Notes under the pieces: generated by a model
The model's database searches: none
What the model saw: only the letters and a program-made list of their open reading frames with translations
Told to the model about the DNA's origin: nothing
NCBI GenBank assembly: GCA_001931905.2
Contig: MSJI02000886.1
Location: 1-64,000, forward strand
Source of the DNA: Cladosporium sp. IMV 00045
Lineage: Eukaryota; Ascomycota; Dothideomycetes; Cladosporiales; Cladosporiaceae
Length of the DNA stretch: 64,000 nt
Direction of reading: 5' to 3'
Program-made: the position numbers and the translations under genes
Part shown: in pieces, positions 37,148-61,206 of the stretch
Position numbering within the stretch: position 1 is the first letter of the stretch
How the letters are laid out: every line of letters starts with the position of its first letter

Positions 37148-39640
37148 CTAGACCGATTCTACTGGGGAAGCCGTGTCAAGGGGACTATCCCAGCCTGAAG
37201 AAAGGCTTTCATCGGAATCGGAGAATGACACTTCGCATCCTAAAAGGGCGTCGTTGTTGTATCTAGACTCGGACCACATGGGGTCGAGCTTCCTCAAGGA
37301 GGCGGCGGCTGACTGGTCCCCGAAAAGTATTACCGCCTCGCGGAGAGTGGGCAATTTGTCGCTGACACTTTTGGCGTCCATTACCCTCCTAACATCCCGT
37401 GGTCTGAGGGCATTTTTACCAAGCCGAGTGTATAATCTCGAATCGTTCTCGCCAAGCCTTGCGTTGTTGTTGACCAAAAGTCGGGCTAGGTCTAGACTGT
37501 CATGAAGAAGTGCATTTTGCACTGCCGACTTTCCTTTTGAGTCCAAGAGATCGAGGTCAGCACCGAGTTTGATTAAGAATCGCAGTTCATCATTACGATT
37601 GTTGTTTGTCGCGACATGCACTCTCGTGTCTCCCTCACCATTACGATCGTTGATACCAGCTCCGAAGCTCTGAAGATGTCTGGCAATGGCAAGTTGTCTG
37701 GATTTAATGGCGATGTCAAGCAGTTGTTTCCCGTTCGCAAGAGCAACATTGGGGTCTGCTCCAACCTCAAGCAGCAATCGCACCACTGTTGCTCGATCGG
37801 CCAGAACAGCCCGTTCGAGTGACACCTGAAGATGGGAGCGAGCTTCTTCCAAAGGCTGATTGCTCAGCAGGAGCTTCAGGATCCCCCCTGATTCACTCTC
37901 TGCAGCATACCTCAGCGGGGTCCATCCGCCTGAGCACTCTTGGTTCAAGACTACGGCTGGATCTTCGTCCGAGTCGACATTCTTGTGCAGCAAAATCCGC
38001 ACCCAAGCTTCGAAACCTAGATGACAAGCGATGTGCAGTCGCGGAGGCGCTGTCGTTGGCAGGTCTCGGAAGTTCATGCTATATTTGCGCCACCAGTCGT
38101 CGCGTACTGGAGCGTTCGCCGCAAAAAAGAAGCTCGCCTGTTCGATCAGAGTCGGAGCAAGTGTAGTGAGGCATGTCGCGTGCTTTCGCCAGTTCAGAAG
38201 TGCGTAGTATTGAAGATGCGTACCAGCCGCGAGGGCCTCCAGACAACGCAGTGCAATGTGCAAGTGCGCTTCATCCGGCTTGATTCGAAATTCTTCCAAA
38301 ATGGGATTTGCGTCCACTTCTGGCCGAAGCAGGTAGTCTTTGACCGACTGGTGTACGAATGTCAATCCTAGGTGGTGTGTTTGTACCATTGGCGCACAAA
38401 TTGAGATCTGGTCAAGTGTAGCTTGCTCTTCGTCGATACCCTCCGAAGCATGGCAATCCAGAATGTCAGCAAAAGTCTTGAGGGAAAGCCTTTTCCGAAA
38501 ACCCATTGCTACCCAAGTGAGCAGATGGACGCTTTTTGCCCTGTCTTCCACCCCAATATTTTCCAGCATTCGTGCGTAGTAAGCCGGGAGGCCTTTGGGG
38601 AGAATAGAGAGGGCTTGCCTGACTTGCGTGCTCGTTCTTTTTCGAGAGAGCTCGGCCACGACGAACCCGACCCATAGGAATGTGCCTCCCGATTGTTTGA
38701 GGAGTGTCTCGACAACGTGTTCTGTAAACCCCGGGCTAAAGTGAAGCTTCTGGGAGAGCTGACGTACTTGTGTCCGAATGTACATCTCAACATCGGCACT
38801 GACATGCTCACTGTTGTCCGGGTCAAGCCTTATGCAGGCACTTCCTCCGAGTGCCGCGATGTCCCGGCTGAGGACCATTATGCACAGGTTTGGGGAATCA
38901 TCGTCCAGCCCCGAATGAGCAAGTCGGGACGCGAGCCAGAGGGAGGAGTCTTCATCACACTCGTCCAATCCGTCAATGACACAATGCAAGCTCTTGTCGG
39001 TCGACCGGCTCGCCAGATGCTGTAGGAGATGCCACAGGGTTTCCTCTGAAGCAAGCGTTGCGTCTCGCCGTTCTGGAGGATCGAAAAAATGCAGCACATG
39101 TTGAGTTAGGTCTGGATGCTGATTCAAGATCTGCCACAACAAGGTTCGTAGCACGGCGGCGGCATTATTGCGCCGCTCATCTTGGCCATGGCAGAAGTAA
39201 TACGCCAGTGTGCCATTCTTAGGCAGCTTTATTTCCTTTGTAAGAAAGACTGACATCATGGTCTTGCCTTTACCAGGACCGCCGCGAAGCCAGAGCAGTT
39301 TCAGATCTCCTTGTAGCCATGACTTGAGCTTTTCGTCCTCCAGGATCCACTCGCACGTTCCTTTGACCCTGTCTCCCTTTGTTCGAATTATACCGTCTCG
39401 ATCGATGCTCGGATCTGTCAAAAACAGGGCGTTGCGGCAGTTTCTAAGTGCTTTGCTATGATCTAAGAGATCGAATCAGCTCAATGAAACATCTGGCGAG
39501 AATGAGCGGAGCGCAGTGTATATCTGACTCTCACCTTCTTTGTGATCTTGGTTTCCGAAGAAGTTGACATCTCCGTGGAAACAGCCTGTGGCGGCTTGTG
39601 AATGATCCTTTACGCTCGTGTTTCCAATTGTCAACGCCAT
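37148..39640 (-). CDS. NLR-type STAND protein: N-terminal short signalling motif, NACHT ATPase, ankyrin repeats
   Basis: Fungal NLRs sense non-self or altered-self ligands and activate cell-death executors. Exons 39640-39535 and 39462-37148 give 806 aa, the first exon encoding only the first 35 residues. That exon contains TIGNTSVKD...SQAATG...HGDVNFFG, a polar Gly/Asn-rich stretch like the amyloid signalling motifs found at the N-terminus of HET-S-partner NLRs. The NACHT domain shows the P-loop GGPGKGKT (96-103) and Walker B CVIDGLDECD (196-205), then WVGFVVAEL and FVHQSVKDYLL, typical of fungal NACHT proteins. The last 270 residues hold ankyrin-like repeats (GWTPLRYAAES, LLLEVGADPNVAL, FLIKLGADLDLLD). 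It starts 443 bp from the divergent Helo-like gene. Confidence 0.9.
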
Positions 39641-40083
39641 GCTGACAGTCCGGCATATAATGCTAGGCTGAGCACTGCTCGAGGTGATATAAATTGTTGT
39701 CGCAGCTGAGCTAGTCTGTCGCACGTTCGAGCGTGACCATGATGTTACTCAGTCAAAGCAAATCATCGCGTACGAACAGTCGCTTCCACGGGTCGACATA
39801 GAACAAGAGCATATATTGCTCAGAAGAAACAACTCTCGACAAAACTAGGCTGAAACTGCTCAGCCCCACCATAGCACGCAGCACATGCATACATGATGTC
39901 TAGCTGCAGGATGGGCGTCAAGCATAGCCGCCGAGCTGAACATAGGCGAGGCAGTGTCAGCGATCTCGAAGCGCTCGACTCTATCAGCCGAACCGGGAGC
40001 ATGCTACAAAAAGCCGAGAAATCCTCTTTGAAGCACATTGTGAGTGTAAAATCAATTTGTATAGCAACTTCGAGTTGAGAACC
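39641..40083. promoter_or_regulatory. Shared divergent promoter of NLR and Helo-like genes
   Basis: The start codons of the NLR (minus) and the Helo-like gene (plus) are 443 bp apart, consistent with coordinated expression. No clear TATA box was identified. Confidence 0.5.
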
Positions 40084-41053
40084 ATGGATCCTTTCAGCAT
40101 CGCGACAGCCGTAATCGGCTTATCGGGCCCAGCCTTAAGCAGCATTTCCAGGCTTCAAAAGGTCATTTATGACTTAGGAGAAGCAAAAGAAGAAGTCAAG
40201 GACATTCAAACGCACCTTGAAGGCATTCAGACTCCACTCCATGCACTTCAAGAGATTCCCACCGTCGACCACGAGGCCGAAGAACTGTACAAGAGTGCCA
40301 TAGCAAAGACGGGTATGGCAAAAGCCGTCAACGAGTGCGGAAAAGCATGCCAGTCTTTCGAAGAAAAGTTACTGAAATGGACGAAGCGGTCCACTAAGGA
40401 CAAGTTGTCTCTCCGCGACAGGATGAATGTCGGTCTTTGGAGGAAAGAGGAAATTCGCACTTTTAAAACTCGACTTGAAACTTGCGAGCGGACTGTACAC
40501 TTTGCTGTCTCGAGTACACAGCTGTAAGTCAACACATTCGTTGAGCGTGTTATTAAGTAAAGACTAATGTCTGGGCAGGCTCCTTCAATCGAGGACATTG
40601 CGCAAGGAAAATGCCAGTGATGATGTGATCGTCCAGCAAATGAGGGCGCTTGAGCTCCAGGCAACATCGCAAATGGAGGTTTTCCAGAGGCAACGAGCAG
40701 AGACCGAACAACGCATAATAAGAGCTGCAGGAGGACAGTCCGACTCCGACGACGAAGAAAGTGCCCAGATTGCAAAAGCCGAGGACGAAGTCAGAGAGCA
40801 ATCTCGACTGCTTGACGAGATGCAGGTGTCGCTCGGTATCGTCTTTGCGCAATTGCGCGCCAGTCGCACGCATCAGGACATCGGTGATGTAATCACCGAC
40901 GGCGCATCGATGGCAATGGTTGGGTTGCCTGAGCGCTTGGTGGGGAAGATAGACCAAAGAATTGGTAATGTCACAACGACGAATAAGTCCGTTTCGATGG
41001 TCGGGGTCTTCGACCAAGGAGTTGATCTGAAAGAGTATTTCAGAAAGTCGTAG
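40084..41053 (+). CDS. Helo-like domain protein with C-terminal amyloid-like motif (putative cell-death executor)
   Basis: Exons 40084-40523 and 40579-41053 give 304 aa. The N-terminus (MDPFSIATAVIGLSGPALSS) is the hydrophobic, glycine-zipper-like start of the Helo_like_N/STAND N-terminal family. It is followed by amphipathic helices (QTHLEGIQTPLHALQEI) and a long charged coiled coil (about 150-240, rich in Q/E/R). In HET-S and HELLP relatives this helical bundle inserts into membranes when triggered. The last 30 residues form a polar tail containing RIGNVTTTNKS and GVFDQGVDL, which aligns without gaps to the N-terminus of the adjacent NLR. The cell-death function is an inference from architecture and linkage. 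The ATG at 40084 is the first in frame. Confidence 0.85.
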
Positions 41054-45141: not shown

Positions 45142-45890
<749 letters not shown>

Positions 45891-55681: not shown

Positions 55682-58600
55682 TCAAAGGTTTCCGGAGTTC
55701 GAGACGTTGAACAAGTGAGGGACGGCTGCCGCGATGGTTCTGTTGAAAGGGCCATACGGAGTTTCGCCATCCTCTGGGAATGTGATGAACTCAAGGATAT
55801 GGTGCGTCTTGTTTCCAAGCAATGGGAAGCGTGCATTGGCGGGGATCTCAGGGTTCGGAAGATACGACGCCCACTGTTTGAAAACGATGCAACCATTGGC
55901 CGGCGTGTTTAGAACATAGCCCCCGCCGTGGCTCAATGGCTCTCTCACATTGCAGAAGTAGCCGATATCGAATGCAAGGTAGCATCCGGTACCTGGGCGG
56001 TCGTCGAAGGCGAATTGAGCCTTGGGTTCACATCCAGACTGGTCCTCTGCCCACTCGACTTTGGTGAAGACGAGAATCCCACGTTTGGCATTCACAGTCA
56101 CGGAAGACATGATACCGACAGTGTTCTCTGGAATTAGAACGGCCTTCTTCGCACAGAAGGTGGAGACCACTTCGTTCGCATCATCTCTCGAGTAGCGCTC
56201 ATACTTACCGTCTGAAGGCTTGTAGCAATAGGCATCGCCTTTCTCGATGGCGGTGTTTGTCGGATAGACGATGGAGTCAGTGCTCGTTGGCCGCTTGGTG
56301 GTTTCAAGGATTGGAGAGGTTGTAGTGGGAGAAAACCAGAATAGCGTGGTCCAAGAGTGGGTCGTGGTGGGAGAGAACGAGAGTAACAGCGTCGAGGATG
56401 TGGTCGTCGGTGGGACAATCGTTGATGTGCTGGTCGGTGAGGTCTCTGTTGTAGCAAAACCAGAGGTCTGCGTTGCGGTAAGCGGTGAGGACGCCTCAAA
56501 TGAATCAGCAGTTGAAGTTCCCGACGAGCTGGCCTTAGGTAAAGCAGCTCCCCACTCATCCGATCCCATAAACCTGCCTTGCATCCAACATTCCCATCTT
56601 GCCATGGGAGGGCCTTCACGGGGTGTTTCCTCCCATCCTTCTGTCACTTGATTTGTGTAAAGCGCCATAGCATTGCCATAAGCACCATCGTATTCCACAA
56701 CCTCTGAAACACCTCTGTAGACAAAGAGCTCGATAGGGGTACTGGGGAAAAACTGTCCCAGCAGTTGCCTGATTGGAGTAAGTCTGTCAGGGTCAGGACT
56801 CCCAGGGCCATACCGGGGTGGATAGTTGCCTCTCGTTTCCGATTCGCGGAGTTTGTCCCTGCTGTAGCTCTTTTTCTCAAAGCTTAGGGACGCCAACGCA
56901 GGTGTCATGATGAAGATCCTCGTGCTGTCATCGCCTGCGAAGAGATTTTGAGCCACCATCGCAAGGACAGCCGTGTTGGACTCGACCCCGTCAATGGGAT
57001 CACGACCGTTCCGCAAGTAATCGATGATGTCGTGCTGGAATTGGGCATTGGCGTGCGAGAATCCGGGGGCCTCCCAGAGGTGACTGACCCAGGCTCCTTT
57101 TCGGGAAATCACTATGATTGAGGTACAACCGACCAAGCCTTGAACTCGCATATTCACATCTGAGGAGGCAAAAGGTTCAAAAAGCGACGATGGTATTCCA
57201 GGTCCAATTCCAGCTTGTATGTTGCGGTTGTCGTTCGTAAGGAGCTTGGTGTTTGGATTATTTGAGATATCCTCATAGTACTCAGCCATGACGCTTCCTC
57301 TGAAAGGAATACCGCGATCATGCAATGGTTGGCCAACGTAAAAGCTCTGGACGTCGCTGCGCTCATCGCTTCCAAGGTGAGATCGAACGTTGTTGGTCTG
57401 TGAGAGTACGCTGCGACGTGCAATACATTTCGGACAACTTTCAGCCGCGCACAGTTGTTGCTGCTTGCCTACTGCAGTTGACGTGGCAGTGATAGTTGTT
57501 GCAGTACAACCGGAAAAAGTAGATGAGAAGGTTGACGTCGTTGCTGTAGTTACAGTTGAGCCTGCATCGTCTGTAGCAAAGGACACGAAATAAGTGATTC
57601 GTGTCACAGTCGCTGTGGTGCAAGATCTGGAGCCCGAGGTCGAAGTTATATCATTCGTTGAGACAGATGGTTTCGTAGGGTCGGGAGATGATGACTGGTA
57701 TGATGGAATTCCGTTCGGGGCTATGGTAATGGCTGGGAACGGCGTGGCAAACCCCGGTGGCGGTCCTGCTGGAGGGAAAATGCCAGGCCCTGGAAATCCA
57801 CGAAGAATGATGCCGTTGGATCCCGGAGGACAGGACCAGCACAAAGGCCAAGGTCCAAGGACAGGGTACCCGTCAGAATCGTGGGTATTGCTTTCGACGG
57901 AAGTTGATGAGAAAGAAACACTGGGAGGGAATACAGTGTAGGTTTGTAGATCGCTTGCTTGGTTCAAGCTCGATTGTGGGCCAATGGTGATTGTACCCAC
58001 AATGATAGAACCGCTCGAGTCCGTTGCAGAGATGACCTCGAACTCCAAATTTGTAGACACAATGCTGTCCATGGTGGTCGAAGTAGGCCCTTGGACACTA
58101 GTAACAACCGTGCTTTCCAAAGTACTAGTTGGCATGGGGTTGCTGTTTGCCGGCGCTTCTTCCATGTTGGACGATTGAGAGCCCGTAGCACTCGTGGAAA
58201 TGATAGTTGTAGTTGATGCTGAAGTTTGTTTTGTATCTGCTGCGTCAGGTTGTCGACGATCCGTAGCAGTCACCGGGCTATTTGTCACAACCGGAGAAGA
58301 AATGCTGCCTGGGATGGAAGTTCGAGACCCTGGAGCGTCTGTAATCGATATTATACTGGCAGTCCCGGATGGTCCTGCTGTAGTGGAGCTTGGGACGTCT
58401 ATGGCGGCTGTGGTATCCATGTTTCCACCTGTGTTCCAGCCTGTGAAGGTGAGACTGCTAGCAGAATCAATGACCGCAATTGAATCTGTTTGCGAGGACC
58501 CAGGCTTGGTGTTAAGTTGAGAGCTTTCACCGACTGAAGGGGCAGGCGGAGCATCAGTTGGAAGATCTGGATCCCCGTCTGCTGAGCCTTGAGGTTCTTC

Positions 58601-61206
58601 ATTGTCCGGACAGATGTTGAACCACGTCCATGCTTCGTTCGTACTCGGCTTGACTGAGATGTAATCTGCCCTTCCAGCACCGTACAGATTGCCGAACTCG
58701 ACGCAGGACCCACGGCTGAAGCCTCCAGTCGCAACTACGGACCTCCATTGCCATTCGAACGCTTCATCTGAGCCTGGTGACCACCCTTCATTATGCCAGG
58801 CTGTGACAGAGCCATCGGCCATGTTAGCGTAGAGATAGTCATCCCTACCGTCGCCATTGATGTCTGCGATTCGGATGTTTTTGCGCTCGCGCCCTTCGGA
58901 ACGCTTGACGAGTCCTTGATTGACCATGTCGCCCACTCCCTTGTTGAGATAGCCAGTTACAGTACCATCGGTCTGAACGCACAAGAAGTCGGCGCGACCA
59001 TCCCCGTCGAGATCATTCCAACGGACTCCCAAGTCATGCTTGTCGGTTCCGTATCCTTGCGTGCAGGTAGCACCACCGGTAACAACACCAAGGTCGGTGA
59101 AAGAGAAGTCGCCATCCTTGTACTCGTTCTTCATGACATTGGCCGCGCCGGAGGCTCTGTCAACGAACAATATGTCGCACTTGCCATCTCCATCAAAATC
59201 CGCAAGGTGGACTGCTTGCCGATCGCGAGTGCCGTTGTAAATGACACCCCACTCCTTCCAGTGGCCCCAGTCATGTTGATTTTCGAAGAGAGTGAGAGAT
59301 CCGGATGCATCAACGAAAATGTAGTCGTCTGACCCGCTTCCTGTCATGTCGCAGTACCTTGAGCCATCTCCTTTGGTCGTGGTTGCGCCATGGTCATGGT
59401 TCTCCCATCGGTCAGTCCAGACTCTGCCATCTTTGACTGAGGCCAACGCATAGTCAGCGCGTCCGGATCCCATGAAGCGCCCAAATTTCACGTTGACTTC
59501 GTGATCGGAGCCTTGGTGAGTTACTCCTTGAGAAAGCCATTCCGGGCCTATGCCAACATCAAATCCGCGACGATTGATCCACGTGGTGACTTGGCCGTTC
59601 TTGCTAACCCAGACGAGATCATCCTTCTTATCTCCATTGAGGTCAGTGAATTGCCAACCAGACAGTTCGTGCTGGGGTAGATCCTTGAAGACGCCATTCA
59701 TCGCGTACCAGTAGGCAGGCGGGCCGTTGGACAATGCTCCATTGCGCCATCCATAGATGTTCTTAGTCTCGTCGTCGAAAACAACATAGTCGGTTCGACC
59801 ATCACCATCGATGTCTGCCAGTCTGACTTGATGTTGCAGGAATCCTTCACTTTGCTTGACAGTGCCCATTGCCACCCAATATGGGTTGAGTGGGTTAGAG
59901 CTCATTGTATTCTGCCAACACACCAAGCCACCGTCGGGTCCAAGACAACAAAAGTCGTCTCTCCCATCACCAATCATATCTGCGAATCTGATACCAGGCC
60001 TGTTGCAACGAGGTGTGAACGGGAACCATTGGTATCCGCCGAGCCCGCCTCCGCCGAGACCCAGGGCAACGCCAATGCCATTTGTCGATTCCGAACCAAA
60101 ATAAACATAGTCCTCCGTCCCATCACCATCGATATCAGCCCAAAAGACTCCTTCATGTTCCGCATTGTCGAAGCCTACACTCGGGGGGTTCTGGTACCCA
60201 GCAAACCCGCCAACCTGTGTACCGACGTGTGAATAAGGCCCGTCATCGTCACCAGAGCCCATTTGCGTCTGGAAGCGGCCGAGCGAGGCTGCAGGGATTT
60301 TGTCGCAGGTATTGTCGGATCCTTCGATCGAAGCAACGCGTAAAATGCTGACGGCGGAGCCTGATAGCCAGCCTTTGTCGTCGAGCTTTTCAATACCTTG
60401 GTACCAGACTTCGGCCATCTTGAGGTAACCCGAGTCGGCGGGGTGGGTCCCATCGCTGAGGTCCGACACTGTGAAGTGCGAGCTGGAGAAGTCGACATAC
60501 GTAATGTGTTTGCCTTGCGTCTGATATGAATGGACCATGCTCGAAATCTGCTCGTTGACAATAGCAATGTTGCTTTCAGTCTCCGGGTCTGAGTTCGGGA
60601 GCAATGTGGAAGCAACAATCGACACATCCGGTATGGCATCGAACAGACGGCTGATCAGTTGTCGAAGGCGGTCACCCACATGCTCAATGTCGATATTGTC
60701 AGCGGCGTCGTTTGTACCAGCGTGGAGCAAAACCAGATCGGGATGCGAGGGAATCGAGCGCTCAGCCGCCTTCGCGACTTCATCAATCACATAGCCCGGC
60801 CAAGCTTCACACTCATTATTTTACATTGAGCCTCCATGGTTGCTACCGATGAAATGGACTGGAGTACCACTGTTGACCAGTCTGGCCCGAAGACCAAGGC
60901 GAAACCCATTGCCGTCGGTCGAGTTTTGGCCGTAAACGATAGACGCGCCGAGTGGCAGGATCTTGAGTTGAACGCCATCGTGTAAAGTGCGTTTATTCAG
61001 AAAGCGTTCATTTGCGTTGATGCTGGGAACTGCATGGGGGGTGGAAATCCCTAAGTGACATTAGCATGACTTTTGCAGGACAAATAGCCTATTTGAACAC
61101 CTGATTGATGCCGCTAACAGACTCGAGAATCATGAAAATGAATAGTCTTACCATAGAGGGACAAAGCCCACAGCACCAGGGCGAGCAACAACAGAAACCG
61201 AGGCAT
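55682..61206 (-). pseudogene. Giant secreted SGNH-esterase/FG-GAP repeat protein interrupted by one in-frame TAA
   Basis: Exons 61206-61152 and 61050-55682 encode 1807 codons. A signal peptide (MPRFLLLLALVLWALSLYG) precedes an SGNH hydrolase domain. This has block I PLGASIVYG with the nucleophile Ser55, the GTND block at 130-133 and DGTH with the catalytic Asp/His at 218-221. Ten FG-GAP/VCBS blades follow (for example DIDGDGTEDYVYF, DIDGDGRTDYVVF, DLDGDGRADFLCV, DINGDGRDDYLYA). Then come a long Ser/Thr-rich stalk, a Cys-containing domain of unknown type (FRGSVMAEYYEDI, VGCTSIIVISRKGAWVSHLW), a second Thr-rich stalk and a C-terminal Cys-rich segment. Codon 95 (60823-60821) is TAA, between block I and GTND in a conserved stretch (GGSM-stop-NNECEAWPGY). 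The other 1,700 codons are open, so the gene could be very recently broken or read through. Confidence 0.82.

Follow-up and report, generated by a model that had tools for sequence, protein, structure and literature searches.

The window analysed here is a stretch of 64,000 nucleotides from Cladosporium sp. IMV 00045 (contig MSJI02000886.1, positions 1 to 64,000 of the forward strand). It contains two divergently oriented genes, one encoding a NOD-like receptor (NLR) and the other a smaller protein with a HeLo-like domain, named here the executor. Their start codons are separated by 443 bases, as the initial annotation of this DNA had reported. A motif of 21 residues occurs once at the N-terminus of the NLR (r0) and twice near the C-terminus of the executor (r1 and r2), and the pair is considered below as a candidate amyloid-signalling module of the HET-s-related amyloid motif (HRAM) kind. 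The coordinates of all features are collected in Table 1.

Table 1. Features of the NLR-executor locus, in positions of the window.
Feature	Positions	Strand	Details and basis
NLR gene, NACHT/NPHP3_N and ankyrin repeats, 806 aa in two exons	37148..39640	-	Predicted gene model, start ATG 39640; exon 1 39640-39535, intron 39534-39463, exon 2 39462-37148
NLR exon 1, 35 codons plus 1 nt	39535..39640	-	r0 motif at residues 1-21; r0 profile match at residues 4-27
GT..AG intron of 72 bp between r0 and the remaining NLR	39463..39534	-	Gene model; alignment of the homeologous copy
Intergenic stretch of 443 bp between the divergent start codons, presumably the shared promoter of NLR and executor	39641..40083	.	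Gene models
Executor gene, 304 aa in two exons	40084..41053	+	Predicted gene model, start ATG 40084; exon 1 40084-40523, intron 40524-40578 (55 bp), exon 2 40579-41053
HeLo-like helical domain, residues 1-185, span crossing the intron	40084..40695	+	PF17111 match
r1 motif, executor residues 244-264	40868..40930	+	Internal repeat; homologue alignment
r1-r2 loop, six residues (265-270)	40931..40948	+	27-residue repeat spacing
r2 motif, executor residues 271-291	40949..41011	+	Internal repeat; r0 profile; homologue alignment
C-terminal 13 residues following r2, including a Tyr-Phe pair, and the stop codon	41012..41053	+	Sequence

The short first exon described in the initial annotation, with the segment quoted there, is present in the NLR gene model. 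In Pfam searches, residues 70-235 of the protein matched NPHP3_N (E 2.1e-38) and the ankyrin repeats were recognized by Ank_2 (E 7.1e-20). The NACHT profile gave 24.5 bits, below its cut-off of 26.7, and 27.6 bits in a six-frame search of the genome. The r0 motif has L3, I5, T8, V10, A16, T18 and G19. A search of the whole genome with the r0 exon matched two places only, the pair and a homeologous copy of it (see below), and thus revealed no further NLR whose r0 is close to this one.

The partner had been called Helo-like, and Pfam agrees, with a PF17111 match at E 2.8e-18. This family is PigL_N in current Pfam naming; in extracts of PMC9815663 it is named Helo_like_N, and HeLo-like (PF17111) proteins are there said to carry HRAM motifs. 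Predicted helices reach residue 243 in a Cladosporium orthologue of the executor, and the tail holds the motif twice, with starts 27 residues apart. The first copy, and hence the internal repeat, is missing from the initial annotation. The repeat scores 42, against a mean of 10.9 (sd 5.4) for shuffled sequences, none of which reached that value in 1000 trials. Both copies have Q3, I5, V8, T10, V18 and G19, and position 16 is Ala in r1 and Ser in r2.

A single-sequence search found 17 homologues of the executor, and a profile built from 12 of these found 66; the organisms named among them are filamentous ascomycetes. Two motif copies were present in 36 of 68 sequences, the window included. The other 32 comprise 23 fragments without a C-terminus, two sequences with one copy (P0155 and P0187) and seven with other or truncated tails (P0157, P0158 and P0160-P0164). 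In the two-copy set the spacing is 27 residues in all sequences except one (35/36), position 5 is Ile in every r1 and every r2, and Gln occupies position 3 in 31 of the r1 and 31 of the r2 copies. At position 4, an acidic residue is present in 33 of the r1 copies and Arg in 31 of the r2 copies, which fits the inter-repeat charge complementarity reported at this HRAM position (PMC4518210).

The r0 and r1/r2 motifs are homologous. The ungapped match of r0 and r2 on which the pairing was first proposed was found again, with its seven identities, over 21 positions, and profiles from which the window was excluded relate the two termini as well. Among the best 120 of 956 NLR homologues, 21 fitted a gapless pattern, and 14 of these make up the r0 profile; P0024, P0077, P0086, P0088, P0097, P0099 and P0135 were not used, being near-duplicate, gapped or doubtful, and P0035 was kept although it is very close to the r0 of the window. 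This profile matched the NLR exon with 33.7 bits and the r2 copy of the executor with 14.3 bits, the top of 3000 shuffled executors being 4.9. Against a six-frame background of 265,634 bases (6514 segments, taken from the window and from further parts of this genome), its only matches at E < 0.4 were to the NLR exon and to the tail of the executor, in the pair and in its homeologous copy, the next match having E 0.41.

Conversely, a profile of r1/r2 was made from 13 of the 17 executor homologues, leaving out the window, P0014-P0016 (without tail) and P0018 (with a broken second copy). In its 25-column form it scored 9.6 bits on the NLR exon, a value reached by none of 5000 exon shuffles, and, among the matches listed, 19 of 101 homologous NLR N-termini matched at E <= 10, the best of them being P0108, P0070, P0097, P0077 and P0076. 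In its 21-column form, it found both executor tails in the six-frame background, with the next match at E 0.62.

In the published definition, an HRAM protein is HeLo-related, no longer than 310 aa, and carries the 21-residue motif twice towards its C-terminus; Gly 19 is conserved, and positions 5, 8, 10 (sometimes Thr), 16 and 18 are apolar. The loop measured 6-18 residues in 154 of 155 proteins, and for 98 of the 155 the adjacent NLR carried a single motif copy N-terminally (PMC4518210). The executor has 304 residues and a HeLo-like domain, its repeats lie within the last 80 residues with a loop of six, and the NLR next door carries one copy at its N-terminus. Both repeats follow the Gly 19 and apolar pattern, with Ser 16 of r2 as the sole exception. 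Aromatic segments after r2 were described for HRAM proteins too (PMC4518210), and a Tyr-Phe pair follows r2 here. The pair probably belongs to the published HRAM2 class, as judged by the text description of that class, since r1 and r2 both have Gln 3 and neither has glutamine at core positions 16 or 18. It shares with HRAM2 pairs a HeLo-like executor of fewer than 310 residues, the two 21-residue repeats, the loop length, Gly 19, Gln 3 and the neighboring NLR with its single copy, and differs from them in an r0 with Leu 3, Thr 8 and 18, and Val 10 (PMC4518210). Corynespora cassiicola, source of the executor homologue P0148, was listed with HRAM2 only (PMC4518210).

Other classes fit less well. 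The Gln at 18 or 16 that marks HRAM4 and HRAM5 is absent, position 18 being Val in r1 and r2 and Thr in r0, and position 16 Ala in r1, Ser in r2 and Ala in r0. Gln 3 stands in place of the Asn of HRAM1 (HET-s), with no match to PF11558 at E <= 10. The core of the PP motif, NxGxQxGxN, or its shorter form GxQxG, matched neither the NLR nor the executor. The divergent motif subtype suggested as possible in the initial annotation is better read as HRAM2, in which r0 diverges somewhat.

The executor tail is related to a known prion fibril. Compared with the sequences of the PDB, it matched the HELLF prion fibril 6EKA at E 2e-5, with the next match at E 1.1, and AlphaFold2 modelled it as two strand-turn-strand rungs, present as two three-strand units (block pLDDT 82-88). 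Amyloid formation and killing are inferred for the pair, and both results agree with a tail that would form fibrils, be seeded, propagate as a prion and cause cell death.

The genome (49.9 Mb in 954 contigs) holds a second, homeologous copy of the pair in the same arrangement (contig C627:46807-49774), with proteins about 92-95% identical (identical columns, 747 of 811 aligned in the NLR and 288 of 304 in the executor). The copy aligns across the NLR intron, and the splice sites are identical. Between the copies, the executor has a dN/dS of 0.114; in the NLR it is 0.095 over the NACHT part and 0.425 over the ankyrin part, and faster change of the ankyrin part would be expected of a sensor. The amino acids of the r0 exon are unchanged between the copies at a gene dS of about 0.17-0.19, which is weak evidence because this exon has only about 21 synonymous sites. 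Several further NLR loci also lie on near-identical contig pairs and, together with the copy of the pair, they make the genome look duplicated or hybrid.

Linkage of the two genes is conserved in other fungi. In Cladosporium fusiforme the locus tags of the two homologues directly follow one another (Q7P37_007754 and 007755). For Xylaria grammica (P0153/P0084) and Corynespora cassiicola (P0148/P0120), the contigs of both homologues are listed at the same size (50128 and 95419, respectively), and from this they are read as sharing a contig; r0 is present in the NLRs of both species. Curvularia clavata also has equal listed contig sizes for its homologues, but tags far apart (08070 and 08348), and there is no r0 in its NLR homologue and no r1/r2 in its executor homologue. 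The initial annotation had looked to profile searches, to linked orthologues and to covarying motifs: the profiles relate the two termini, linkage was borne out by the homeologous copy and C. fusiforme and, as read here, by Xylaria and Corynespora, while covariation was not found over three pairs.

The locus is highly likely to be a two-gene amyloid-signalling cell-death module of the HRAM kind, probably of class HRAM2; an amyloid-signalling cell-death pair had been proposed in the initial annotation, and the profiles, the two-copy tail with its regular spacing, the HeLo-like domain, the 6EKA match, the AlphaFold2 model and the linkage support it. At the level of sequence, the evidence for the pair is stronger than it was there. 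Because of the homology to known systems, the ankyrin repeats of the NLR would be expected to sense a non-self or damage cue and the NACHT domain to drive oligomerization of the receptor. The clustered r0 would then fold into a beta-solenoid and template the two-rung r1-r2 tail of the neighboring executor, whose HeLo-like helical domain would be released, attack the membrane and kill the cell.

A precedent for such a pair is HELLF/FNT1 of Podospora anserina, of class HRAM5, which in extracts of PMC7885112 and PMC7889193 likewise has a HeLo-like executor and an adjacent NLR carrying r0. The executor tail aligns with HELLF gap-free across both repeats in the 6EKA match, with Val in place of the core Gln 18 of both HELLF repeats, and the NLR combines NACHT with ankyrin repeats, whereas FNT1 is given as NB-ARC with TPR (PMC7885112, in extract). 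HET-S/NWD2 of P. anserina, of class HRAM1, follows the same logic with the same divergent gene order, according to extracts of PMC3321046; unlike the window executor, which is HeLo-like with Gln 3 and no PF11558 match, HET-S has a HeLo domain and Asn 3 (PMC4518210). In the PP-motif system HELLP/PNT1, a HeLo-like executor is also activated via a motif common with the NLR (PMC7885112, in extract), and neither the NLR nor the executor of the window contains the NxGxQxGxN core.

Several results weigh against this interpretation. The best ungapped 21-residue match between the NLR exon and the executor scores 29, compared with a mean of 16.2 (sd 4.7) for shuffles, and since 18 of 1000 exon shuffles equal the r0-r2 match, this match taken alone is only mildly unusual. 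Moreover, the 21-column r1/r2 profile misses the NLR exon at E <= 1 among the 6514 segments. It could be argued from the shuffles that the termini are alike by chance and the genes mere neighbors; given the profile tests with shuffles and six-frame background, and the linkage in other fungi, this is extremely unlikely, and chance likeness was rejected on the profile evidence despite the outcome for r0 and r2 alone.

Fold searches, including those with the tail model, returned no significant match, and PF11558 was not matched by either protein of the pair (Pfam, E <= 10). The former would be compatible with a motif that is homologous but lets the NLR bind its partner in a conventional way, without amyloid. 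Such a function is very improbable for a tail that has a match to the prion domain of HELLF, whose structure was solved on amyloid fibrils, shows a two-rung strand pattern in the AlphaFold2 model and keeps Gly 19 and the apolar HRAM pattern.

The remaining adverse points concern r0. The annotated NLR of C. fusiforme (P0020, Q7P37_007755) shows no r0, because the annotated model begins after the place of r0; it starts just past the expected junction of the r0 exon, and the gene model may have missed a short first exon. In HET-eN a 5' intron concealed the N-terminal motif from the first annotators, according to extracts of PMC3321046. In the window itself, r0 has Leu at position 3 and two polar Thr (8 and 18) in a core that is apolar in the HRAM pattern; among the r0 motifs of other NLRs, T8 is present in 4 of 14, T18 in 2 of 14 and Q3 in 8 of 14. 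Cognate specificity is absent over the three pairs compared, the r0 of the window scoring 25 against the r2 of its own partner and 29 against the Xylaria r2; the published co-evolution of HRAM motifs is at the level of classes (PMC4518210). An HRAM module with relaxed or re-wired signalling, in which r0 seeds its neighbor poorly or the executor answers another NLR, would account for this lack of specificity and for the departure of r0 from r1/r2 at positions 3, 8, 10 and 18, and adjacency, at 98 of 155, is not universal (PMC4518210). This alternative is nevertheless considered unlikely, as the genome search with the r0 exon gave only the pair and its copy, and the unchanged r0 exon of the two copies speaks, weakly, in the same direction.

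Relatives of both genes carry other motifs. Among the PF17111 relatives of the executor, P0157, P0162 and P0163 (and also P0160 and P0164) have different tails, with the strict PP core NxGxQxGxN in P0157 and a relaxed form of it in P0162 and P0163, which suggests, from the sequences compared, that one HeLo-like family has swapped its amyloid motif. In the same genome, NLR paralogues of 37-42% identity have a G/N/Q-rich motif before NACHT instead of HRAM (L014, L015, L016, L019 and L020, on contigs C141, C761, C516 and, twice, C6). A 37-residue query found this motif, which looks sigma-like, at nine places of the genome, the further ones being on C724 (twice), C902 and C178. Sigma motifs span about 40 residues and repeat two submotifs three times. 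Another divergent PF17111/NACHT pair (L051, C385:75800-79700) has no HRAM-like tail in its frames.

Elsewhere in the window, positions 45219-45890 (+) hold a polyubiquitin gene of about three in-frame, head-to-tail ubiquitin units, and positions 55682-60820 (-) a single 1712-codon open frame that begins like an esterase and contains numerous repeats of DxDGDG type, with linkers rich in Ser/Thr.

The r0 motif combines T8 with V10, compared with V8 and T10 in r1 and r2. A speculative and rather doubtful proposal is that this swap marks a separate, orthogonal signalling channel within HRAM2, both halves of the module belonging to families that exchange amyloid motifs. If that were true, this locus, together with its homeologous copy, would offer a natural setting in which to study the evolution of seeding specificity after duplication.

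Such systems have been described from other fungi before, and the 2015 survey alone counted 155 relatives with two repeats (PMC4518210). The classes described as experimentally characterized are HRAM1 (HET-S) and HRAM5 (HELLF), according to extracts of PMC7885112 and PMC7889193, and the literature found on HRAM2 and amyloid consists, in the parts available, of computational studies and a review. To these, the Cladosporium locus adds a clean receptor-executor pair, in which a NACHT-ankyrin NLR is combined with an HRAM2-type motif, in two homeologous copies within one genome. Being a compact HRAM2 pair, it would be useful for testing whether the classes cross-seed.

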